Shown: in pieces, positions 1 to 12,080 of the stretch | Numbering within the stretch: the first letter of the stretch is position 1 | Layout: every line of letters starts with the position of its first letter | Assembly: GCF_945952055.1 (NCBI RefSeq) | Contig: NZ_CAMFHB010000040.1 | Coordinates: 1-58,349, forward strand | Source: an uncultured Alsobacter sp. | GTDB lineage: Bacteria; Pseudomonadota; Alphaproteobacteria; Rhizobiales; Beijerinckiaceae | Reading direction: 5' to 3' | Length of the DNA: 58,349 bases | Notes under the pieces: generated by a model | What the model was told of the DNA's origin: nothing | The model's database searches: none | Seen by the model: only the letters and a program-made list of their open reading frames with translations | Translations under genes and position numbers: made by a program

Positions 1-938
1 GCCAGGGCCTGGGTCGCCGCGGCGACCGCGGTCGCCCCCGTCGCCTGGACACGGGTGGTGGCCGCCTGGTCGGTGACGGCCGTGACGAGTGCGGCCCGCT
101 GCCCCACGCCGACCTGCGCGGCATTGGCGGCGATCACCGAGGTGGCGGGCCTGGAGACGCTCGCTGTCCGGCTGCCGGCGGACTGGCTGGCATTGCCGGA
201 CTGGGCCGAGACGGTCGCGGGCGGCGCGCCGGTGGCGGGATTGACGTAGGCGGCGCGGACCAACGGGTCGGTGGGCGGCCGCGGCGCGCCGCCGAACTGT
301 CCCGGACGGCTTCCGATGAGCGTGGTCGGCAGGTCGTAGTCGCCGGGGCCGGACCGGGCGGGCGACGCCGGGGCCTGCCCGCCCACCACCACGACGACGA
401 AGCCGGGGCGTTCGATTCGCTGCGAGCCGAGCGCGTTGGAGACGGTCAGGCGGCCATAGGTCGAGATGACGCGCAGCGTCCGCGTGGCGGGGTCATAGAT
501 GACCGTGAAGGCGCCTCCCCTGACGCCCACCGTTCCCACCGGTGTGCGCACCTCGACCGTGCCGCGGTGGCTGATCTCGCCGCCGACGAAGCGCAGCATC
601 CCCTTGCCGAGGCTCATCAGCATCGTGCCGGCCTTGGCATTGGGATCGTAGAAATATTCGTCGAGGACCACGTCGGTCTCGGGCCCGAGCCCGACCACCG
701 ACTTGTCCACGAAGGCGATGTTGACCGATCCCTGCTGGGTGGTCTGGACCCGCTCCTTGAAGATGACGTTCGTGCCCAGGTCCAGCGTCCGCCGGACGCG
801 TCCCGGGGGCGTGCCCTCGGTGGTCTGGTTGACCGCCCCCACGCGCCCGACGTCCTGGGCCATCAGCGCGCCGGGCGCGACTCCCGCCATGAGCAGGGCC
901 AAGGGGGCCAAGGGGCCGATGAAGCGACGCAACGCCAT
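1..938 (-). CDS. FecR-domain secreted protein, partial (C-terminus beyond the window)
   Basis: The reading frame opens at ATG 938-936 and stays open to the left edge, so about 312 residues are visible and the end is missing. The first ~26 residues form a signal peptide (MALRRF, hydrophobic core, ending ALMAQDVG). A FecR-type domain follows, with GAVNQTTEGTPPGR, a NVIFKERV stretch, VVLDEYFYDP and VRTPVGTVGVRGGAF. After it come a Pro/Gly-rich linker and an Ala-rich segment. The N-terminal ~230 residues are closely similar to the complete gene at 1045-3894, so the two are tandem paralogs 106 bp apart and probably co-transcribed behind the SLAM-like gene. By analogy the missing C-terminus may carry a TbpB-like barrel, but this cannot be seen. 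FecR domains in sigma-factor regulators sit behind a membrane anchor; none is present here, so a secreted or surface role is inferred. Confidence 0.85.
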   Translation of the reverse strand, partial: MALRRFIGPLAPLALLMAGVAPGALMAQDVGRVGAVNQTTEGTPPGRVRRTLDLGTNVIFKERVQTTQQGSVNIAFVDKSVVGLGPETDVVLDEYFYDPNAKAGTMLMSLGKGMLRFVGGEISHRGTVEVRTPVGTVGVRGGAFTVIYDPATRTLRVISTYGRLTVSNALGSQRIERPGFVVVVVGGQAPASPARSGPGDYDLPTTLIGSRPGQFGGAPRPPTDPLVRAAYVNPATGAPPATVSAQSGNASQSAGSRTASVSRPATSVIAANAAQVGVGQRAALVTAVTDQAATTRVQATGATAVAAATQAL

Positions 939-1044: not shown

Positions 1045-3894
1045 TCACCGCTTGCCGAGGAACACCCCGTTCGCGGCGTAGGCCGGCCCCCCCGTGCTGG
1101 ACAGTCCGAACTGGCCCCCCATCTCGGCGGGCGGCGTGCCCGGCCCGTAGAAGGAGCCGCGCAGCGCTCCCGCGGCGCTGGCGCCGGAGATCACGCCCGA
1201 GAAGTTGACGGTGCCCGCCGCCAGCGTGCTCGAGAAGGAGTAGTTGCGGCCGTCGAGATTGCTGATGGCGCCGGTGCCGCTGCCCGTCGCGAAGTTCACC
1301 GTATGGCTCAGGTTGCCCGCGGCGATGTAGACCGCGCCCGCATTGTTGACGCTGGCGATCGCGTGGCCGTTGTACGTGGCCGAGCCGGTGTTGGGGATCT
1401 GCCCGGGGCTGGCGAGGACGCCCGCGACCCAGGGGTTCAGGTTGCCCCAGTCCGTGTCGGAGGCATGCGATCCCGCGACCGACCAGAAGCCCCACTGCGT
1501 GTAGGCGCAGTCGCAGATGGTGACGCCCGGGAAGAACTGCGTGTTCGCGTTGGGATTGCTCGAGACGACCGCCGACCACGGGAACAGGAGCTGCCTGTTG
1601 CCCGTCCCGATGGTCTCCACGACGTTGGTGCGCAGGGTCGCGGTCGAGGTGGCGGCCGATCCGCTGTAGCTGCGCAGGGCGAAGGTCTTGCTGTCGATGT
1701 ATGTCGAGCGGCGCCCCGCCTCGTTGGAGGTGTCCGAACCAAGCTGGTAGATCGCCGAGGCCAGGCGCGACGTGGGGTCGGTGCTCTGGATCTTAATCGT
1801 GGCGCGAACCGTCGACGAGGCGGGATCGAAGGTCATCACCACGTCGTCCGGCGTGCCGGTGAGGCCCGCGAACTGGTAGTCCTGGCGGGTGGCGGTGAGC
1901 AGCGGGAAGAGGCCGTTGGCGCCGGCCACGTTGCTGGCCTGGGTGGACGTGAACGAGCCCGAGACGTAGCCGTTCAGCGTCATCGCCGGGCGATCGTTGC
2001 CCAGCCCCGCCGGCGGCGTCACCGCCGTGCCGGACTGCGAGATGGCGTAGTTGGGCGTGTTGTTGCCCGGCAGGTAGCCGTATTGCTGCGCGCCCGTGTT
2101 GGCCGGGGCGATGAGGCCGCCGGCGAGGCTCGCCTGGTCCACGGTCGCCGCGTTCGGGATGCCGTCCGCATCGACGGTGATCGAGCCGTTCGTTCCGGTG
2201 ATGGCACCGGCGGCGAAGGACGGTCCGTTGGATCCGACCGTGCGGCCCGACGCGAAGAAGCCGCCGATGAACTCCTGAGCGTTGCCCGTGCCCGTCCGCG
2301 CCGGCTCGAAGCTGCCGGTCGCCACGATCGCGTTCGATGATTGCGTGGCGCCGGTTCCGGCCAGGGAGAAGCCGATGAGCAGCGTGCGGGTGACGCCCGG
2401 CGTGACCGTGAAGCCGTCGGCCGACACCGTGCCCTGGCCGCGATAGCCGAGCATGGGCGTGGTCACCGCGGCGTTGCTGTTGGCGTTGCTGACGAAGACG
2501 TTGGTGAGGAACGGGATGGCCGAACCGGCGGAGGCCGTGCCGTCCAGCGCGAAGACGCGGGCGGGCACCAGCCTCGCCGCCTGGAACGAGGCCGCCACGA
2601 GCGAGGTGACGTCCAGCGCCCGCGCCTGCGCGATCGCGTTCTGGCTCACGACGGACTGCACGGCCGACAGCACGGTGTTGGCCACCGCCACCAGGTCGGC
2701 CGCGGCGGCCTGGATCTCCGCGAGCGTGGTGGCGGACTGCAGGCGGACGAGGATCGCCTCGAGCTGCGAGAGCGCGGCGATCGCACGGGCCAGATCGACG
2801 TCGGCCTGGTTGAGGGCCGCCTGGGCCGCGGCCGCGGCCTGCAGGGCGGCCGACCGGGAGACGGCGCCACCGGCGTCGGTGCTGGCATTGGCTGCCGCGG
2901 AGGCCGCAGCCGCGGCCAGCTGCGCCGCCGAGGTGCGCGCCAGCTGAGCCACGGAGACGGCCTGGCGGGCCGCCGTGACGGCGGCGCTGCCGTCGGTCTT
3001 CACGCTCGACGTCGAACCCTGGCGCGTGACGGCCGTGGTCTGGGCCGCCTGGTTGTTCACGGCCGTCTGGACCGTCCTGGTCGTCTGCTGGGTGTCCGGC
3101 GGCGGCGGCGGCGCGTTGCCCGTGGTTCGCGTCGTGGTCTGGCTGGTGTTTCCCGTCTGGGCGGGCACGCTGCCGGGCTGCGTCCGGCTGGTCGGATCGT
3201 TGTAGACGGACTGGACGAGAGGGTCGGTCGGCGGGCGCGGGGCGCCGCCGTTCTGGCCGGGCTGGCTGCCCACCATCATCGTGGGCCGGTCGAAATCGCC
3301 CTCGCCGGCGCGCTGCGGGGGAGACGGCGGCCCTCCCCCCGTCATGGTCGAGACGTAGCCCGGCCGCGTGATGACCTGCGTGCCCTGCGCGTTGCTGATC
3401 GTCAGGCGGCCATAGCTGGAGAGGATGCGCAGCGACCGCGACCCCGGGTCGTAGGTGAGCGTGAAGGCTCCGCCGCGCACGCCGACCGTGCCGACGGGCG
3501 TGCGCACCTCGACATTGCCCTGGTGGCTGATCTCGCCGCCGACGAAACGGAGCGCCCCCTTGCCCAGGGTCAGGAGCATCTTTCCGGTCTTGCCGTTGGG
3601 ATCGTAGAGATACTCGTCCAGCACCACGTTGCTGTCGGGTCCCAGCGAGACGGTGGACTTGTCGACGAAGGCGACCTGCAGCGAGCCGACCTTCGAGGTC
3701 TCGATCCGCTCCTTGAAGATGACGTTGTTGCCGAGGTTCAGCATCCGCGACGGCCGGCCGGGAGGCGTGCCCTGCGACGTCTGGTTGACGGCTCCGACCA
3801 GGCCGATGTCCTGGGCCAGGGCGACGCCCGACACCGTGCCGGCGAGGAGCCCTGTCGCGAGCGGAAGAACCTGGCGCATGCGCATGATGGTCAT
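1045..3894 (-). CDS. Secreted FecR-domain protein with C-terminal TbpB-like beta-barrel (putative SLAM cargo)
   Basis: 949 residues. Residues 1-28 are a signal peptide (MTIMRMRQVLPLATG to VALAQD) with no lipobox cysteine, so the product should be soluble after export. Residues ~30-170 form the FecR domain (GAVNQTSQGTPPGR, NVIFKERIE, VRTPVGTVGVRGGAF). Residues ~185-300 are a Pro/Thr/Gln-rich linker, and ~300-450 are strongly Ala-rich and probably a long helix or coiled coil. The rest is Gly/Ser/Thr-rich with beta-strand character. The tail (GSFYGPGTPPAEMGGQFG, then GVFLGKR) matches the closing strands of the transferrin-binding-protein-B barrel family, in which a G-FYG-P, E-GG-F, GKR pattern recurs. 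That barrel is the signature seen in SLAM-translocated proteins, and a SLAM-like gene lies 6 bp upstream in the operon. The barrel assignment is pattern recognition and needs a profile search. The ligand is unknown. Confidence 0.8.
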   Translation of the reverse strand: MTIMRMRQVLPLATGLLAGTVSGVALAQDIGLVGAVNQTSQGTPPGRPSRMLNLGNNVIFKERIETSKVGSLQVAFVDKSTVSLGPDSNVVLDEYLYDPNGKTGKMLLTLGKGALRFVGGEISHQGNVEVRTPVGTVGVRGGAFTLTYDPGSRSLRILSSYGRLTISNAQGTQVITRPGYVSTMTGGGPPSPPQRAGEGDFDRPTMMVGSQPGQNGGAPRPPTDPLVQSVYNDPTSRTQPGSVPAQTGNTSQTTTRTTGNAPPPPPDTQQTTRTVQTAVNNQAAQTTAVTRQGSTSSVKTDGSAAVTAARQAVSVAQLARTSAAQLAAAAASAAANASTDAGGAVSRSAALQAAAAAQAALNQADVDLARAIAALSQLEAILVRLQSATTLAEIQAAAADLVAVANTVLSAVQSVVSQNAIAQARALDVTSLVAASFQAARLVPARVFALDGTASAGSAIPFLTNVFVSNANSNAAVTTPMLGYRGQGTVSADGFTVTPGVTRTLLIGFSLAGTGATQSSNAIVATGSFEPARTGTGNAQEFIGGFFASGRTVGSNGPSFAAGAITGTNGSITVDADGIPNAATVDQASLAGGLIAPANTGAQQYGYLPGNNTPNYAISQSGTAVTPPAGLGNDRPAMTLNGYVSGSFTSTQASNVAGANGLFPLLTATRQDYQFAGLTGTPDDVVMTFDPASSTVRATIKIQSTDPTSRLASAIYQLGSDTSNEAGRRSTYIDSKTFALRSYSGSAATSTATLRTNVVETIGTGNRQLLFPWSAVVSSNPNANTQFFPGVTICDCAYTQWGFWSVAGSHASDTDWGNLNPWVAGVLASPGQIPNTGSATYNGHAIASVNNAGAVYIAAGNLSHTVNFATGSGTGAISNLDGRNYSFSSTLAAGTVNFSGVISGASAAGALRGSFYGPGTPPAEMGGQFGLSSTGGPAYAANGVFLGKR

Positions 3895-3900
3895 GTCCTG

Positions 3901-5253
3901 TCAGAACCTGAGGGATGGTCCGAACGCGACACTGAAGTTCCGGTACCGATAATTGGGAAGATTGGAGTGATTGCGCGACAGTTGCATCTGGACGCCCACC
4001 GAGAACAGGTCGGTGAGCGGCGTCTCGAGCGCGAGCCCGACATGGCGCTCCCGGTCGCGCCGCTTGACGTTGGGATCCACCAGGACGTTGGGCGCCTTGT
4101 AGTTGTACCACGATCCGCCGAAGGACGGCGTCACGGACAGGGGCTTCGACACCAGCGGCAGGGTGACCTCGAAGGGGAACGCCACGTCGACGGTGGATGA
4201 CCGGAAGCCGTTCGAACGGACGTCGGCATCGTTGTCGTAGAGACCGCCCTTCACGACCGCGCGCACGCCATAGGCCAGCGGTACGGCCGTGCTGGCGAAG
4301 ACGCCCGCCAGTTCGCCGCTCTGCTGGCTGGCCAGCGGATAGGTGCTGCTGTTGTGGAACGTGCGCCAGCGGTACTCGCCGCCCACCTCGAGCGAGGCGA
4401 AGGGCAAGGGCACGCTGAGCGCCGCGCCGAGGCCCGCGGTCGAGCTGTAGTAGGTGTCGGAGAGGCCGAGCAGGGCGCCGATGGCGTAGGGCCGCACCGA
4501 GATGCCGGGCAAGGCATCGAGCGGAATGGCGAGCCGCGGCCCCGTGGTCACCTCGAGGGCCTGGATGTCATAGGTGGAGACCTTGGCCTGCTGCGCCAGG
4601 TAGGTCTGCGCCACGGTTTCCCAGGTGTCGCCACGCTGGTTGTCGAAATCGAGAACGTGGCGCACGCCGCCGATGACGAAGGCGTTCCAGTCGGGCCGCT
4701 TCGCGAATGCCCGGTCGAGCGTCGCGTCGAAGCCGAGAACCCGGACATTGAGGTTGGAGGGGCCGGCATTGGCGTTGGTCTGGTAGCGCGCGCCCACCTG
4801 GACGAAGCCCGAGAACTGGCTGATGCGCTGCCGCCGGTCGATCTCGCCCATGAACTTCTGGACGGCGAGCTTCACGTCCTCGGGCGCGCCGGGCTGTTCC
4901 AGGGCGGTCTTGAAGTAGGACCGGGCCTGTCCGTAGGACCCCAGGCGGAAATAGAGCACGCCCAGTTCGAGCCGCACCCGCGCCAGGTTGGGGTTGAAGA
5001 AGAGCATGCGCTCGAGCGCGCCGATCGCGGCCTCGTACTCGCCCACCGCATTCGCCGCCTCGGCGAACTTGAAGGCGGCGTCCAGGTCGGCCGGGCTGGC
5101 CAGCGACTCCTTGAAGCGCTGCTCGAAGAGGCGCCGGGCCTCGCTGTCCTGGGCCGACGCTTTGCCAAGCAGCAAGCACGCCACCCCGACGCTGGCGGAC
5201 AGCAAGGCCCACACCGCCCTTCGCGTCAATCGGAAGACAGTCACGCCAATCAC
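3901..5253 (-). CDS. SLAM/DUF560-like outer membrane protein (TPR plus beta-barrel; type XI secretion candidate)
   Basis: 450 residues from GTG 5253. A signal peptide ends near residue 34 (LLLGKASAQDSEA). Residues ~50-130 contain TPR-like helices (ANAVGEYEAAIGALERM, NLARVRLELGVLYFRLG, YGQARSYFKTAL). Residues ~150-450 alternate as transmembrane beta strands and end in an aromatic residue: YRYRNFSVAFGPSLRF is a typical beta-signal terminus. The length and the TPR-then-barrel order match surface lipoprotein assembly modulators (SLAM, DUF560), which move TbpB-barrel proteins across the outer membrane. The immediately downstream gene encodes a protein with a TbpB-like C-terminal barrel, as expected for a secretion pair. 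A general TPR-porin is the main alternative. No strong Shine-Dalgarno precedes the GTG, so a GTG three codons further in is possible. Confidence 0.75.
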   Translation of the reverse strand: MIGVTVFRLTRRAVWALLSASVGVACLLLGKASAQDSEARRLFEQRFKESLASPADLDAAFKFAEAANAVGEYEAAIGALERMLFFNPNLARVRLELGVLYFRLGSYGQARSYFKTALEQPGAPEDVKLAVQKFMGEIDRRQRISQFSGFVQVGARYQTNANAGPSNLNVRVLGFDATLDRAFAKRPDWNAFVIGGVRHVLDFDNQRGDTWETVAQTYLAQQAKVSTYDIQALEVTTGPRLAIPLDALPGISVRPYAIGALLGLSDTYYSSTAGLGAALSVPLPFASLEVGGEYRWRTFHNSSTYPLASQQSGELAGVFASTAVPLAYGVRAVVKGGLYDNDADVRSNGFRSSTVDVAFPFEVTLPLVSKPLSVTPSFGGSWYNYKAPNVLVDPNVKRRDRERHVGLALETPLTDLFSVGVQMQLSRNHSNLPNYRYRNFSVAFGPSLRF

Positions 5254-6096: not shown

Positions 6097-6518
6097 GCTT
6101 ACAACGCACGACGAGCTGGCGGCGGTCGCAGATCGACGCGAGGCGTCCGATGCGGGCGAGCAGGCCGTGACGATCGGCGTTGCGCGAACGTGCTGGTCCA
6201 TCCCGAGAAATCGAGCGCACGTCTCGAGAGCGACGTCTCTCGCCTGAAGCGCGCTCGGGCCTTGTGCAAGTCGAGGCCAACTGGAGGGACGGCGTCCCGA
6301 CGTTTTCGAAGACGGCGAGTGGCATGGCCATGCCATTCGCGGGCCCTCGACGACACGTCACCCCAACTCAGCCGCTTTCGAAGGTACGCGAGGTCAGGCC
6401 AGGGCATCGTTCCGAGGATCCGAAGCAATTCATTGGTTGCAGTCAGGGAGCCGAAAGCCTAGGCGCTCCGCTGGCGCATGATGTATGTGTCGGTCGGACC
6501 CGGAGGCGAGGCGTCACC
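6097..6518. other. Intergenic stretch without a supported gene
   Basis: 422 bp upstream of the deacetylase gene. Reading frames are open on both strands here, but their products are Arg/Ser-rich, lack family resemblance and overlap one another. The in-frame extension of the next gene back to 6180 adds ~113 residues of non-family sequence and was not accepted. A perfect 16-bp palindrome (TGGCATGGCCATGCCA) lies at 6320-6335. The promoter of the 6519-9651 operon should be in this region. Confidence 0.4.
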
Positions 6519-7244
6519 ATGCCAGGCAGCAACCTCGTGCTGACTATCGACATCGACTGGGCGCACGACACCGTGATCGCCGACCTCGCCGGGATCGTTG
6601 CCGAACACGGTGTCGCCGCCACGTGGTTCGTGACGCATGACACGCCGGTGCTGCGCGAGATCACGGCAATCCCGCGGCAAGACCTCGGCCTGCATCCCAA
6701 TTTCAACCCTCTGCTGGATGGCACCGGCAGCGGAAACGCTCGCGCCGTCGTCGGAGCCTTGCACGACCTCGTGCCCGACGCGCGTTGCGTTCGTGGCCAT
6801 TCGCTCGCCCGATCGAGCCGGATTGCGCAGGTGCTGGTGGAGCATGGGATCACTCACGAATCGAATCACATGATCCCACCCACCGTGGCCCCGGCGCTCG
6901 AACCCTGGCGCGACTTCAGCGGCCTGATCCATGCCGCCATTCGCTGGGAAGACGACGTCCGTCTGCTCGACGCCTCTCTGGGCGAGCCGGCCGATCACCT
7001 TGGCATCGTGTGCCCCTTTGTCGTGGATTTTCATCCCATTCATGTCTTCCTGAACACAACGACGATCGCGGAATACGAGGCTGCCCGAGGTGACGCCCGA
7101 GCCCCGGAAGCGCTCCTGTCCCGACGAAGGCCATCGGGAACCGGCGGCAGTCGCGACCGGCTGCTCACCCTCCTTCGGGCGGCTCGCGGCCATGGCGACC
7201 CGGGTACGCTCCTGCGGGATCTGAAGCCGTCGGAGATCGGCTAG
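6519..7244 (+). CDS. WbmS-like polysaccharide deacetylase family protein
   Basis: 241 residues from ATG 6519; a GGAGGCGAGG stretch precedes it, and the family sequence begins at once with NLVLTIDIDWAHDTVIADL. This is the NodB-fold first strand with paired aspartates (D11, D13), followed by GVAATWFVTH (H40), LGLHPNFN (H59) and RGHSL (H94), all expected metal-site or catalytic positions. Size and motif order resemble the WbmS branch found in Bordetella O-antigen loci. The likely role is removal of an N-acetyl group from an amino sugar, on a nucleotide sugar or at a chain end. The stop is 2 bp before the next gene, a formyltransferase, and a third gene fuses the two activities, so a deacetylate-then-formylate pathway is inferred. 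The exact substrate is unknown. Confidence 0.75.
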   Translation: MPGSNLVLTIDIDWAHDTVIADLAGIVAEHGVAATWFVTHDTPVLREITAIPRQDLGLHPNFNPLLDGTGSGNARAVVGALHDLVPDARCVRGHSLARSSRIAQVLVEHGITHESNHMIPPTVAPALEPWRDFSGLIHAAIRWEDDVRLLDASLGEPADHLGIVCPFVVDFHPIHVFLNTTTIAEYEAARGDARAPEALLSRRRPSGTGGSRDRLLTLLRAARGHGDPGTLLRDLKPSEIG

Positions 7245-7246
7245 TC

Positions 7247-8194
7247 ATGCGAATCGCGATTCTGGGTCGGACCCGGTGGTTGCTGGAGGCCGCCGCCGCG
7301 CTGGCTGACGCAGGTCACAGGATCGTTTTCGTCGCCACGGCGAAGGCTGCCCCGGAATACGGGGTCGATGCGCGGGACTTCGCAGCTCTCGCAAGCCGCC
7401 ATGCCGCCGTTTTCCTCGACGATCCCGCGATCAACAATCCCGAAACGGTCGATGTCCTACGGGCGTCCGGCGCCGAGGTCGGGGTCTCGATCAACTGGCC
7501 CACTCTGATCCGACAGACGACCTGCGAGGCCTTGCCCCACGGGATCCTGAACTCACACTCCGGCGACCTGCCGCGCTATCGCGGCAACGCGTGTCCGAAC
7601 TGGGCGATCATCAATGGGGAGGAACGGGTGGGGCTGTGCGTTCACCGCATGGACCCGGTCGAACTCGATGCCGGTCCGGTCTTCGCGCGCAGCTTCCTGC
7701 CGCTCGCCGACGACACCTACATTGCCGACGTTTACGCGTGGATGGCGACGGAAGTGCCCGCGTTGTTCCTAGCAGCCGTTTCGAATCTGCAGCGCCCGGG
7801 CTTTGTGCCGGAGGACCAGGCGGCACTCGGCGTCCGGCCCCTGCGCTGCCATCCCCGCCGATCGGAGGATGGCCGGATCGACTGGTCGGCGCCTGCCAGC
7901 CACGTCCTCCGGCTGGTTCGAGCGTCGTCCCGCCCCTTCCGCGGGGCCTTCGCCTTTCTGGACGGCGAAACGGAGGTCACGATCTGGCGCGCACGCCCCG
8001 CAGCGCTCGACCACGACGTTCTGGCCGTTCCCGGGCAGATCATGGGCCGCGGTCCCCACCAGGGCGTTCTGGTAGCCTGCGGGAGCGGCGTCATCGAGAT
8101 TGACGAGGCGGACATGCGTGGCGGAGGGCGCCTTCCGTCGGCCAACAGGTTCAGGTTGACCCCTTGGCCCGGCGGCTCGCCCAGAGTCGTTTGA
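7247..8194 (+). CDS. Sugar N-formyltransferase (methionyl-tRNA formyltransferase-like fold)
   Basis: 315 residues. The N-terminal ~190 residues show the formyltransferase domain: Rossmann start MRIAILGRTRWLLEA, then GILNSHSGDLPRYRGNACPNW carrying the catalytic Asn102 and His104, then VELDAGPVF carrying Asp141. The C-terminal ~110 residues resemble the C-terminal domain of Fmt-like enzymes (RIDWSAP, then VLRLVRASSRPFRGAF). Enzymes of this type transfer a formyl group from N10-formyltetrahydrofolate to an amino sugar nucleotide. The absence of a Fmt housekeeping context and the presence of deacetylase partners argue for sugar rather than tRNA as substrate. ATG 7247 follows the upstream stop by 2 bp, so the pair is translationally linked. 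Confidence 0.85.
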   Translation: MRIAILGRTRWLLEAAAALADAGHRIVFVATAKAAPEYGVDARDFAALASRHAAVFLDDPAINNPETVDVLRASGAEVGVSINWPTLIRQTTCEALPHGILNSHSGDLPRYRGNACPNWAIINGEERVGLCVHRMDPVELDAGPVFARSFLPLADDTYIADVYAWMATEVPALFLAAVSNLQRPGFVPEDQAALGVRPLRCHPRRSEDGRIDWSAPASHVLRLVRASSRPFRGAFAFLDGETEVTIWRARPAALDHDVLAVPGQIMGRGPHQGVLVACGSGVIEIDEADMRGGGRLPSANRFRLTPWPGGSPRVV

Positions 8195-8241
8195 GCACCG
8201 CCGGCCGATTTCACACCTAGCTTTGTTCGGAACACCTGCCG

Positions 8242-9651
8242 ATGGGCCACGTCATCCTGCTGACTGCTTACACCGGACCGGCGCTCGATCGGATCCGGTC
8301 GGCACTGGGTCTCGACCAGAGCTTTGCCGTCGTGCAGACGCTGGACGCGTTGCTTGCGGAGCCCATTGGGCCGGAGACGTCCCTCATCAGCTTCGGAACT
8401 GGTGTGATCGTTCCGTCCGACACGCTCGCCCGGCTTTCCCGGCCGGCTTATAACGTACACGCCGCCTCTCCAGACTTTCCCGGCCGCGATCCGCATCATC
8501 ATGCCGTTTACAGGCAGGCGCCGCGGTACGGTGCGACGCTTCACCTGATGGAGGCGCGGGTCGATGCGGGCCCCATCGTGGGCGTCGCGCTGTTCGACGT
8601 CACGGTGAACGCGCGCCCTTCCGACCTGCTGGCGGCGGCCAGCGAAGCAGGACTGCAGCTTATCGAAAGATTCGGGCCGAGGCTTCTCGAGCCGCCCCCC
8701 CTTCCGGCTCTGCCCGATGTGCACTGGGGCCCCGTCAAGACACGGCGGAGCGACCTCAAGCGGCTATCGACCGTCAGCTGCCTCATGGACGAAGCGGAGT
8801 TCGAGCGCCGGTACAGGGCCTTCGATGGCGGCGCGCACGACAACCTGACCCTGAGGCTTCACGGCCGCACCTTCCGGATCGAAAAGCGAGAGGAACAGCC
8901 CGCCGCGAACGGACGGGCGTTCGCCGACTTCACCGAGGATGGTTTCGTCGCGCTGATGCGCGCCCTGGTGACGCGTGGCTACCGGTTCGCGGAGTTGGGG
9001 GACGGGGGCTCGGACCGCCACGTGGTCTGGCGCCACGACGTGGACTTCTCGATGCATCGGGCGGCGCGGCTGGCCGAACTGGAGGCCCGGGAAGGAGCCC
9101 GCGCGACCTACTTCGTCAACCCGCGCTGCGAGTTCTACAACCTTCTCGAGCCGGGAGTCCTTGCGCTGGTCCGGTCGATCCAGGACCACGGCCACGTCGT
9201 CGGCCTCCATTTCGATGCCGGCGCGCTGGGCGTCACGCAGTGGACGAGGCCCATGCTGGAGACAGCGGTCGCGAAGGAGTGCGACCTGCTGGAATCCATC
9301 CTCGGTACGGCGGTCGGGACCGTCAGCTGGCATAATCCGGACCTGAGCAACGTCCTGGACTTCGACGACGAGGTCATCGCCGGCCGGAGCAACGCCTATT
9401 CGGCGAGGATGCGCCGCGAGTACGTCTACTGCTCGGACTCGAACGGCTTCTGGCGCTTCAAGAGCATGACCGCGGTCATCGCCGAGGGGCACGAGCGTCT
9501 GTACCTGCTGACCCATCCGGCATGGTGGACGCCCGAGCCGATGTCGCCCTCCGAGCGGATCGATCGCGCCATCCTGGGCCGTGCGCGGGCCGTGAGACGC
9601 AGCTACGACATCCTGCTCGCGCGAGGCGGCCGGCGTAACGTCACGGGGTAG
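8242..9651 (+). CDS. Fused formyltransferase-like and polysaccharide deacetylase-like protein
   Basis: 469 residues in one continuous frame. Residues ~1-165 form a short formyltransferase-like domain: YNVHAASPDFPGRDPHHH carries Asn71 and His73, and EARVDAGPI carries Asp108, so the Asn-His-Asp triad is kept although the nucleotide-fold half is abbreviated. Residues ~190-460 are deacetylase-like: VVWRHDVDFSMHRAARLAEL (H265, D266, D268), ARATYFVNP, HGHVVGLHFDAG (H323), SWHNPD and LLTHPAWW. The fusion joins the same two activities that the two preceding genes encode separately. This suggests one substrate whose N-acyl group is swapped. It ends 10 bp inside the convergent methyltransferase gene (9641). 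The formyl domain may be a binding or vestigial domain rather than active. Confidence 0.8.
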   Translation: MGHVILLTAYTGPALDRIRSALGLDQSFAVVQTLDALLAEPIGPETSLISFGTGVIVPSDTLARLSRPAYNVHAASPDFPGRDPHHHAVYRQAPRYGATLHLMEARVDAGPIVGVALFDVTVNARPSDLLAAASEAGLQLIERFGPRLLEPPPLPALPDVHWGPVKTRRSDLKRLSTVSCLMDEAEFERRYRAFDGGAHDNLTLRLHGRTFRIEKREEQPAANGRAFADFTEDGFVALMRALVTRGYRFAELGDGGSDRHVVWRHDVDFSMHRAARLAELEAREGARATYFVNPRCEFYNLLEPGVLALVRSIQDHGHVVGLHFDAGALGVTQWTRPMLETAVAKECDLLESILGTAVGTVSWHNPDLSNVLDFDDEVIAGRSNAYSARMRREYVYCSDSNGFWRFKSMTAVIAEGHERLYLLTHPAWWTPEPMSPSERIDRAILGRARAVRRSYDILLARGGRRNVTG

Positions 9652-10678
9652 GAGCGTCCGCCGGAACGGCCACAGCCTGGCCGGGCTTGCGCGCGACGAC
9701 GGTGATGCCGGCTTCCTCGGCATGCAGGTGTTCGATCGAGAGGCCAGCCATCTCCACCCATCCGCGCACCTCTTCGGGCGTCTGGCGGAACGCGTATTTC
9801 GGCATGAACCAGTCGAAATTGATATGGTTCATCTCGTCGAAAGTGAATTCGGGTCGGTAATAGGCCTTCAGAACCGACCAGTAGAAGAGACGCTGGATGT
9901 CGATCTCGCCCTTCCTGATCCCGAGCGATGGGATGTCATCCTTGATATCGACCTTGGCCTTCATCTCGCCGAGGGCGATGCCCAGGCCGGTGATGGCCTT
10001 CATGTCCTCCCACGCCTGTTGGGGCGGCATGGCGGAAAAGATGGACCGCAGGTAATCGTCGGTGAACTCGCGGACGGGTCCCTTCTTGTTGTAGACATAG
10101 AAAGCAAAGACGCCGCCGGGTCGCAGAAGCGGCACCAGCGAGTCGAACGCGCCCTTGGTCGATGGCGTGTGATGCAGAACGCCCTCGGAAAGGATGAGAT
10201 CGACCGAGCCCGGCCGGACCGGCAGCTTGGTCAGGTCGCATTGGATGAACAGGGAGTCACGGCAGCGCGGCGCCAGGTTCTCTCGCGCAATGGCGACGGC
10301 GCTCGATATGTCCGATCCGATGTAGCGGATCCGATCCCATTGCCCTTCGAAGATGATGTCGGCGGAAAACCCCGATCCGCATCCCGCGTCGAGCACGATC
10401 GGGCCCTGCTGTGCGGCGACATAGTCCAGCGGATTGCGCCCGCCGTACCGGGTGTCGAGCCAGCGGATTTGCGTCTCCCGGACAGCGCCGGACGCGTAGG
10501 TCTCACGCTTGCTCCACTTGAAGCCGAAAGCCTCGCTGGTCTGCCCCTGGCCAGCCTCGTGCTCGTCCGCGAAGGTCAGCACGCCGTCGCGCATGGTGGC
10601 CGAACGCCCCTGGAATTCAGCCGACGCGCTGTCGGGCGGCAAAGAGCGGCCAAGAACGGCCTCGATCCACGAAGTCAA
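9641..10678 (-). CDS. Class I SAM-dependent methyltransferase
   Basis: 345 residues from TTG 10678; AAGGA about nine bases upstream supports this start, and an ATG 29 codons further in is the alternative. The motif IVLDAGCGSGFSAD (residues 94-107) is the SAM-binding glycine loop, IGSDIS is the acidic strand-2 end, and DLILSEGVLHHTP is the post-motif II region typical of small-molecule methyltransferases. The N-terminal ~60 residues (FGFKWSKRET) resemble the lead-in of sugar or lipid-linked methyltransferases. It is the last minus-strand gene of the polysaccharide block. In ABC-exported O-antigens with a carbohydrate-binding Wzt domain, a terminal methyl group often marks the finished chain; such a capping role is inferred only. 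Confidence 0.8.
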   Translation of the reverse strand: MTSWIEAVLGRSLPPDSASAEFQGRSATMRDGVLTFADEHEAGQGQTSEAFGFKWSKRETYASGAVRETQIRWLDTRYGGRNPLDYVAAQQGPIVLDAGCGSGFSADIIFEGQWDRIRYIGSDISSAVAIARENLAPRCRDSLFIQCDLTKLPVRPGSVDLILSEGVLHHTPSTKGAFDSLVPLLRPGGVFAFYVYNKKGPVREFTDDYLRSIFSAMPPQQAWEDMKAITGLGIALGEMKAKVDIKDDIPSLGIRKGEIDIQRLFYWSVLKAYYRPEFTFDEMNHINFDWFMPKYAFRQTPEEVRGWVEMAGLSIEHLHAEEAGITVVARKPGQAVAVPADAPTP

Positions 10679-10859
10679 AGGGCTGTCCTTCCGGTCTGGT
10701 CTGGCGGCATCGCGCTCGATCCGAAGCTCGCCATCAGCACGCGCTCACGTTTCCGGCTGCTTAGCACTCTTCGAGACCTCAAATCCACCCGCAGGCCCCT
10801 CTCGCCGCTCTTTGGCCGAGGTGGTCTTTGCTGCGGCGCCTGAGGCGACCAGGGCCGGA

Positions 10860-12080
10860 TCAGCCATCGACGAGACACCGTGCGACGGTCTCCATCCGGT
10901 TGGCATATGTGTGCCTGTCCAGGACGAGAGCATGCAGGCGATCGACGATCGCGCCGCGCTGGTCCGGATCGGCAAAGCGGCGGAGAACATCGTCGATGTT
11001 GGAGAAGTCGGGCTCGAGCGCCAGGTAGTGCTCGTCCGCGACGAGGATGTCGTTGAACCGTCCCGGGAACATGATCTGGCAGGTACGCGTGCCGGCCGCA
11101 TCGAAATGCCTCGAGCTGATGCACTTGCCGTTGATGGCGGGCCGTTCCCGCCCCGCGAAAAAGCGCGCATGGATCTCGGCAGGATCGACCGCCTCGTTGA
11201 CCAGCGCCTCGTGGCGGAGCGGGCCGTGGCGCAGCACCTTGCGGGCGAGGTCGCGCGCCCATCCCGGCAGCTTGTGACCCAGGGTTCGCAGGGCGGAGTC
11301 GTTGCGGATGACGAAGGCGCTTCCCGAGCGGGACAGAATGTAGTCGCGAATGGCGTTGACGGTCGCGTCGTCACGCTCGAGGAACCACGTCCCCGCTTCC
11401 GTCGCGACCGTCGCCTTGCTGCGGTTCAGGAAATCGGCCCATCCGGTCCGGTCGAAGCGGCCGTCGGAGATGTCGATGGCGAGCCCCCTGCCCGGACCCT
11501 GCGTCCTGAACCAGTCGAGGATGCGGTTGCGGTCATCGTCACCCAGGTGAGCGAGGTACCGGACCGCTCTAGCTCCCACGTCGATGGGACGGTCCTGCGC
11601 CGCACGAAGAGGCCGGTAGGCAGCCGGATTGAGGGCATGGGGGATCGCAACGACCCGACCGGCCACGTCGCCGAACAGATACTGCCCCGCCTCCGGAAGC
11701 AGCTGGGTAGCGACGATGTCAGGCCGAAACAGCGAAAAGAGATGGCGTTTCTCGGCAATCGGAGAACCCGGCAGGCTCACCTCGTTGCCGACGAACGTCA
11801 GCAGCGGCACCTTGCGCCCGGCCAGGGTGGCCGCATGAGGCTCCAGGTAGTCGGTCGTGTCGCCATTGGTGGAATGGAGGAGGACGACGGCATCGACCTC
11901 GCCCAGGAGCGCCGGCAGCCGCTCCCTCGCCTCTGCCGGAACGATGTCGAACGGAACGGCGTCGAAATGCGGTGACGTCGCGAAGGCATCGAGCCAGTCG
12001 TCGTAGTAGGAGAGACGATCCGTGTAGTTCGCATATCCCACGAGCACGCGGATTCGGCTTTCACGCGAAGACGTCGTCAT
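10860..12080 (-). CDS. Glycosyltransferase, CgeB/GT1-like
   Basis: 406 residues. The N-terminal half is a Rossmann-like region (RIRVLVGYANYTDRLSYYDDW). The C-terminal half carries the pattern of CgeB/YkvP-type glycosyltransferases: KCISSRHFDAAGTRTCQIM, then a flexible loop and LALEPDFSNIDDVLRRF, where the acceptor-independent sugar-nucleotide site usually sits. The same pattern occurs in the N-terminal module of the gene at 23874-26501 (SPRIFESALAGTCQIL), so the two are related. It probably adds one sugar of the surface glycan in the cytoplasm. The linkage cannot be predicted. The 181 bp between it and the methyltransferase holds no gene. Confidence 0.7.
   Translation of the reverse strand: MTTSSRESRIRVLVGYANYTDRLSYYDDWLDAFATSPHFDAVPFDIVPAEARERLPALLGEVDAVVLLHSTNGDTTDYLEPHAATLAGRKVPLLTFVGNEVSLPGSPIAEKRHLFSLFRPDIVATQLLPEAGQYLFGDVAGRVVAIPHALNPAAYRPLRAAQDRPIDVGARAVRYLAHLGDDDRNRILDWFRTQGPGRGLAIDISDGRFDRTGWADFLNRSKATVATEAGTWFLERDDATVNAIRDYILSRSGSAFVIRNDSALRTLGHKLPGWARDLARKVLRHGPLRHEALVNEAVDPAEIHARFFAGRERPAINGKCISSRHFDAAGTRTCQIMFPGRFNDILVADEHYLALEPDFSNIDDVLRRFADPDQRGAIVDRLHALVLDRHTYANRMETVARCLVDG

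Follow-up and report, generated by a model that had tools for sequence, protein, structure and literature searches.

A Slam-like exporter encoded with a FecR-headed, TbpB-tailed protein: a conserved, clade-biased candidate variant of type XI secretion

What would an outer-membrane exporter of the Slam type do with a protein that begins with a FecR domain? This question is raised by two minus-strand genes in a 58,349-nucleotide (nt) stretch of DNA from an uncultured Alsobacter sp. (contig NZ_CAMFHB010000040.1 of assembly GCF_945952055.1; hereafter, the window). A preliminary description of the sequence had read them as a type XI secretion pair, consisting of a SLAM-like exporter (P0002) and a secreted cargo (P0001), and both open reading frames (ORFs) were found where it had placed them, with the proposed 6-bp spacing (Table 1). 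FecR domains usually work inside the cell envelope; FecR proteins of anti-sigma/cell-surface signaling also have, at their N terminus, an anti-sigma part in the inner membrane and are partnered by a FecI gene. P0001 carries a FecR domain according to Pfam and, as judged by eye, begins with a signal peptide. Comparison of sequences and predicted models indicates that the exporter and the FecR-headed cargo form a conserved operon, a clade-biased variant of type XI secretion, whose domains, conservation, and linkage to cyclase genes are described below.

Conservation of the pair and its cyclase neighbors

A genome scan yielded 71 loci encoding relatives of P0002, most of them alphaproteobacterial. 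An adjacent FecR gene was present in 60 of these loci, at distances of −13 to +220 nt from the end of the exporter gene (median gap, 10 nt), and searches with hidden Markov models (HMMs) detected FecR anywhere in 66/71 loci and the barrel in 55/71. Because many of the loci belong to close Rhizobium or Roseibium relatives, the exporters were clustered at 60% identity, and 24 of the 29 clusters had an adjacent FecR gene. The 11 nonadjacent loci include one cut within a FecR-like ORF (L055) and five Stappia-type genomes (L057, L059, L069, L080, and L090) with a short FecR gene upstream of the exporter, separated from it in L057 (4825–9206) by one intervening ORF. Both HMMs were built from the 51 sequences of alignment A4 (50 loci and the window), and the FecR HMM still recovered the unlinked FecR proteins L006–L008. 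Counts out of 51 cover the chosen, mostly barrel-bearing members of A4, which omits 10 of the 60 adjacent FecR genes (L025, L030, L042, L047, L052, L053, L054, L065, L067, and L091) as cut by a contig end, short, split, or barrel-less by the first search. The exporter alignment, A3, contains 70 of the 71 loci and the window and omits L091.

Control loci of other Slams from the same class were examined with flanks of about 7 kb, or as far as the contig reached; 0/17 had FecR and 7/17 a TbpB-type barrel. Chance pairing of exporter and FecR gene was ruled out by this difference (60/71 loci versus 0/17 controls). The controls were drawn from 30 Slam loci, and all 17 lie outside the FecR side of the tree described below. 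Four of the 30 with FecR in their 1.5-kb flanks (L134, L143, L144, and L146) were kept out of the controls; in the tree, L134, L143, L144, and L156 (identical to the L146 gene) group on the FecR side. The nine further loci were kept at short flanks, where no FecR was found; one of them, L149, is inside the FecR side. In a separate search, TbpB_B_D matched 26 of 297 genomes of the order, and five of six widened loci showed an exporter with a FecR-barrel protein; the six were hand-picked from the 26 genomes, and the five with the pair are the same five that had been picked for long ORFs. One of them carries two barrel-bearing FecR genes and one barrel-less FecR gene in tandem. The six-base gap in the window is consistent with one transcript.

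A CHASE2 adenylate/guanylate cyclase gene (query from L030, PF05226 plus PF00211) was found in 30/71 loci and in 10 of the 29 exporter clusters, compared with 0/17 control Slam loci. It lies directly downstream on the same strand in 22 of the 53 loci that have a FecR partner and more than 1 kb beyond it. Three of the five TbpB_B_D-derived pair loci carry the gene, as do 8/9 nonwindow widened regions, a biased fraction as these regions were picked for a known FecR gene beside an exporter. The source genome of the window has five CHASE2 matches, one of them beside a FecR gene: on contig C25 (L171, 6252–10190), a gap of 21 nt separates a FecR gene from the CHASE2 cyclase gene after it, and an exporter was not found there. 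The recurrent cyclase neighbor is a hint that the pair may serve as a sensor at the cell surface instead of simply secreting a protein.

Domains and relationships of the two proteins

The AlphaFold2 (AF2) model of P0002 (mean confidence score, pLDDT, 93.3) shows six helices followed by 14 long strands, the number predicted for the Slam1 barrel (PMC5449769). In Pfam, P0002 alone gives tetratricopeptide repeats (TPRs) and matches TPR_Slam weakly (16.0 bits; cut-off, 35.2). Thus, both the N-terminal TPR domain and the 14-strand barrel of Slam/type XI secretion system (T11SS) outer-membrane proteins are present by Pfam and predicted model, in agreement with the 450-residue TPR plus β-barrel protein first described. 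The third mark of these proteins, homology to the DUF560/SlipAM barrel, was found through family members and a family profile; since SlipAM does not match P0002 alone, its link to Slams needs that profile. When the 70 loci and the window were scanned one by one, SlipAM matched 14/71 exporter-family members (best, 6.6e-9) and TPR_Slam 25/71, both at E ≤0.1. A barrel-only profile of 40 members, aligned by hhalign with 25 PF04575-recruited Slams, gave 100% and an E-value of 6e-39, and the same 25 Slams reversed gave 3.4% and 0.013. Four of the 25 (L134, L143, L144, and L149) fall inside the FecR group of the tree; with a strict set of 13 Slams, all outside that group, the match was 99.8% (E 1.7e-28, 285 columns). 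The hmmsearch E-values in both Slam profile comparisons refer to 40 sequences only. At the level of family profiles and predicted structure, 3901–5253 therefore encodes a member of the type XI/Slam superfamily made up of TPRs and a 14-strand barrel, and the proposed SLAM/DUF560 match holds at that level.

A midpoint-rooted tree was built from 67 hand-picked rows: 36 from A3 (71 rows), the 25 PF04575-recruited Slams, and six from widened regions. All 37 FecR-linked exporters fall in one 46-row group (support 100/99), which also encloses nine rows whose exporters lack an adjacent FecR gene, and 21 other Slams lie outside. By this sequence tree, FecR-linked exporters are confined, among the Slams examined, to one side of one branch. 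A SlipAM search of the whole source genome gave no match and was uninformative, as control genomes were equally silent. The exporter-barrel profile had only weak matches among PDB sequences (NanC best at 0.0026). The Foldseek matches listed for the exporter model include barrels of a general kind and proteins that combine TPRs with a barrel, among them BcsC, which stands first; a Slam structure was not among these 50 matches, which does not exclude one.

In P0001, Pfam places FecR (PF04773) on residues 63–153 (1.7e-10, above the cut-off) and TbpB_B_D (PF01298) on residues 833–948 (1e-6; 29.8 bits, cut-off 26), and FHBP_C also matches the C-terminal barrel (29.7 bits, cut-off 28.1). The AF2 model of the C terminus is an eight-strand barrel with pLDDT about 97, whose best solved-structure matches are TbpB-type (TbpB, NHBA, HpuA, and hemophilin; Foldseek/VIA). 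Most TbpB, HpuA, and fHbp structure alignments begin at mature residues 601–614 (627–640 of the full protein). The FecR domain, the long Ala-rich segment, and the TbpB-type tail were thus correctly anticipated, and the tail motifs lie as claimed (GSFYGP at 913–918, EMGGQF at 924–929, and GKR at the C-terminal end). Both sequence features of a TbpB-type Slam cargo, a C-terminal eight-strand barrel (predicted) and a gene beside the exporter (6 nt), were found. The NCBIfam model slam_lipo (NF041636) matches 42/51 cargo proteins; its match to P0001 has an E-value of 6.6e-15, yet scores 55.7 bits against a cut-off of 80. P0001 therefore lies outside the Slam-dependent surface lipoproteins, which combine that cut-off with a lipobox. 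Because its only cysteines are residues 794 and 796, P0001 has no lipobox and is not a lipoprotein, and a lipobox-like motif was found in 0/50 relatives of the cargo. Of the earlier claim of signal peptides without a lipobox, the second half is thus borne out for P0001, and the signal peptides of P0001 and P0002 are assignments by eye.

Two motifs recur in the cargo. The PGQxGG-type motif, which often precedes PTD within an otherwise disordered linker, might serve for docking or cleavage; inspection by eye did not reveal it in the stretch examined of three exporter-less FecR proteins. The invariant C-x-C/W-G-x-W just before the barrel is a possible disulfide or ligand site. A strict CxC..WGxW text pattern finds it in 32/51 cargo proteins, and absence of this pattern elsewhere says little.

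Table 1. Features of the pair and of the adjoining paralogue in the window
Feature	Coordinates	Strand	Remarks
Second FecR paralogue, N-terminal part only	3..938	-	Cut by contig end; ORF starts at 938
FecR-headed cargo P0001	1045..3894	-	949 aa, ATG start; type I signal peptide by eye, no lipobox
C-terminal eight-strand TbpB/NHBA-type barrel, residues 838-948	1051..1383	-	Pfam, model, Foldseek
C-x-C then W-G-x-W, residues 794-804	1483..1515	-	All five positions 51/51 in alignment A4
Beta-rich region ahead of barrel, residues 436-786	1537..2589	-	Handle-like by position; predicted model
Ala-rich helical segment, residues 302-425	2620..2991	-	38% Ala; model and composition
Disordered linker, residues 214-301	2992..3255	-	pLDDT mostly <50
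PGQxGG-type linear motif after FecR fold	3244..3261	-	Strict pattern in 35/51 cargo proteins
FecR fold, residues 27-186	3337..3816	-	Pfam FecR 63-153
Intergenic gap, exporter/cargo	3895..3900	-	6 bases
SLAM-like outer-membrane protein P0002	3901..5253	-	450 aa, GTG start
14-strand barrel of P0002	3904-4821	-	AF2 model; strand count from model
Six TPR-like helices of P0002	4831-5148	-	AF2 model and Pfam TPRs
Signal peptide of P0002	5149-5253	-	Judged by eye

Export, retention, and signaling

The explanation that we favor, and consider probable, is that the pair comprises a divergent type XI (Slam/DUF560-superfamily) translocon and its dedicated nonlipidated substrate, whose tail would be exported and whose FecR head would serve as a periplasmic plug and transducer. 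The proposal arises because Slam1 requires TbpB to be unfolded (PMC9090332) and because type I and type Vb systems retain giant adhesins through a module in the periplasm whose structure recalls the Marinomonas anchoring domain (PMC13090378). For export, topology, and signaling, we infer the following course. The substrate would cross the inner membrane by its type I signal peptide. By analogy with known Slams, the C-terminal TbpB-type barrel would act as the export signal and be pushed out through the 14-strand barrel. The N-terminal FecR domain would fold in the periplasm and, remaining there, plug the exporter, whose pore the disordered linker would pass through; the protein would then stay attached to the surface with no need of a lipid anchor, in the manner of giant adhesins and their retention modules. 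The FecR head might then relay a surface signal to a periplasmic CHASE2 domain and so to a cyclic nucleotide, in relatives with a neighboring CHASE2 cyclase and perhaps in trans at the window locus. The plug/transducer model would explain why the cargo lacks a lipid anchor and has a linker, and why cyclase genes are its neighbors.

A complete transmembrane relay, in which the exporter delivers only the receptor tail and the FecR head both anchors the protein and signals CHASE2 cyclases making cyclic AMP (cAMP) or cyclic GMP (cGMP), is put forward tentatively, as possible rather than probable. CHASE2 is a sensory domain whose signals are described as unknown (PMC5192318). If true, the proposal would add surface sensing, in many alphaproteobacteria, to the roles of type XI secretion in metal/haem uptake and host contact. 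It would also mean that type XI cargo can be kept on the surface by something other than a lipid and that CHASE2 cyclases can receive input from the outer membrane. Of the earlier idea of FecR as a secreted cargo, the pairing and the cargo-type tail stand, but the idea is probably too simple, as the FecR head more likely stays periplasmic.

Several results weigh against the plug/transducer proposal. The Pfam scan with SlipAM (PF04575) gave no match to P0002 alone at E up to 1, and at E ≤0.01 TbpB_B_D matches only 14/51 cargo proteins and FHBP_C 31/51. A FecR gene was not found in 5/71 loci (L033, L037, L041, L043, and L045, of which L037 is cut by a contig end), and short barrel-less FecR partners exist (L030, L065, and L150–L154), so that the exporter is not always beside a barrel cargo. 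A CHASE2 gene was not found at the window locus or at L021–L029 within the stretch examined, three of these nine loci ending less than 1 kb from the FecR gene, nor was it found in 290000–307075 of contig C2. The likeness of the FecR fold to adhesin-retention modules is also limited for P0001, which retention_LapA (NF033682) does not match at E up to 1; the cargo scores seen are less than half its 50-bit cut-off, and the exporter-less FecR protein L006 scores 26.8 bits, above the singly scanned cargo.

The FecR core of the cargo does match the Marinomonas primoryensis adhesin anchoring domain (5ix9) by sequence (2e-4) and fold, and retention_LapA matches 20/51 cargo proteins at E ≤1e-3; among five scanned singly, three scored 20.3–22.6 bits and two were unmatched at E ≤0.1. 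As the unlinked L006 also matches, this HMM was rejected as a specific marker of the cargo; by these sequence scores, the match supports the FecR fold only and does not mark the cargo family. The barrel-less FecR partners may be pure signaling versions. Several of them have proline-rich tails, and in three the tail has cysteines at or close to its end.

An ordinary soluble type XI cargo, released whole like hemophilin or HrpC with FecR as an extracellular binding module, appears rather unlikely to us. The missing lipobox and the single TbpB-type barrel would fit the soluble TbpBBD class (PMC8406197), as would the structure matches of the barrel, but the recurrent CHASE2 neighbors and the exporter-less FecR-CHASE2 gene pair in the same genome point to a periplasmic FecR domain, whose fold, moreover, resembles an adhesin anchoring domain. 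It is more doubtful still that the pair is a signaling receptor without export, in which the TPR-barrel protein would act like FecA, the rest would be periplasmic with a CHASE2 output, and the Slam-like barrel would have lost transport. FecR interacts with FecA in Escherichia coli (PMC5498481), and the short barrel-less FecR partners, most with CHASE2 in the locus (L030, L065, and L151–L154, not L150), would suit such a receptor; against it, the long forms retain a TbpB-type barrel, predicted to be well folded and found in 55/71 loci, and the barrel domain is regarded as what targets cargo to the T11SS (PMC12282271).

We give almost no credence to the idea that the exporter is a polysaccharide export porin (PgaA/BcsC/PelB type) and that its FecR neighbor is unrelated to it. 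Its support would be the first place of BcsC in Foldseek, weak PgaA model matches in 18/71 members (best, 4.8e-5), and the deacetylase, formyltransferase, and glycosyltransferase-like genes upstream in the window. However, the exporter-barrel profile matches Slams over its full length, and the conserved neighbor is the FecR gene (polysaccharide genes were looked at in the window only). Set against the BcsC and PgaA hints, the family-profile match to Slams led us to reject such a porin as the principal explanation.

Surroundings of the pair and comparison with known systems

Beyond the pair, residues 690–949 of P0001 have a 69% identical counterpart at the end of contig C2. This second paralogue is apparently split, at its Ala-rich part, between 3–938 (−) of the window and 305097–307075 (−) of C2 (L003/L004). 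Adjacency of contigs C40 and C2 is suggested only by this split, and window-start k-mers were not found in the C2 end. The C2 portion contains a reading-frame change, either a sequencing error or a mark of a decayed gene, and a porin-like ORF (by eye) lies beyond the paralogue on the opposite strand (L003, 3–1310, +). In the window, 6180–12080 encodes a polysaccharide deacetylase (WbmS-like), two formyltransferase-domain genes, and a glycosyltransferase-like gene, possibly a surface-glycan region next to the pair.

The main text of two T11SS surveys (PMC12282271 and PMC8406197) and of the Slam cargo survey (PMC5449769) does not contain the word FecR, and no report of the pair was found, by title or in the accessible passages, among the papers listed on FecR with Slam, type XI, DUF560, TbpBBD, transferrin-binding protein, or CHASE2. 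Partial precedent comes from Campylobacterota clusters, in which, as in many loci of the relatives, a FecR protein is encoded beside a CHASE2 cyclase, together with a TPR protein (PMC9239204), and a FecR-CHASE2 neighborhood also occurs in Burkholderia, where a LysM-FecR gene lies beside a CHASE2 kinase gene (PMC5192318). Compared by description only, neither cluster has a Slam-like exporter or a TbpB-type barrel named in the accessible passages of these papers. The "new cargo class" of the preliminary description thus needs narrowing: the FecR-headed cargo is new relative to the T11SS literature searched, as far as its accessible text goes, and FecR-TPR-CHASE2 clusters are already known in Campylobacterota.

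In Sinorhizobium meliloti, NsrA is an outer-membrane barrel protein signaling to the CHASE2 cyclases CyaK, CyaD1, and CyaD2 (PMC7529298 and PMC13001267); by its description, its barrel portion spans residues 600–1200, and it is therefore not the 450-residue exporter. An Acinetobacter baumannii haem cluster has FecR-domain and TbpB-like genes with nearby tags (ACICU_RS04575 and RS04585; PMC12300311). It differs in that these are two separate proteins, and the FecR protein looks like the usual regulator because a sigma-70 factor gene has a nearby tag. With LapA-type retention modules and 5ix9, P0001 shares an N-terminal β domain of FecR fold followed by a helix and a disordered segment, whereas LapA-type adhesins belong to type I and type Vb secretion (PMC13090378) and the cargo scores seen lie below the NF033682 cut-off. 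The closest likeness in layout is to Neisseria meningitidis Slam1-TbpB and Xenorhabdus nematophila HrpB-HrpC, in which a TPR plus 14-strand barrel exporter is also encoded beside a protein with a C-terminal eight-strand TbpB-type barrel; HrpC and hemophilin are, like P0001, nonlipidated cargo. In contrast to Slam1-TbpB and HrpB-HrpC, the exporter here groups with FecR-linked ones, apart from the 21 other Slams, its cargo adds an N-terminal FecR domain, a long linker, and CxC-WGxW, and many loci of its relatives carry CHASE2 genes.

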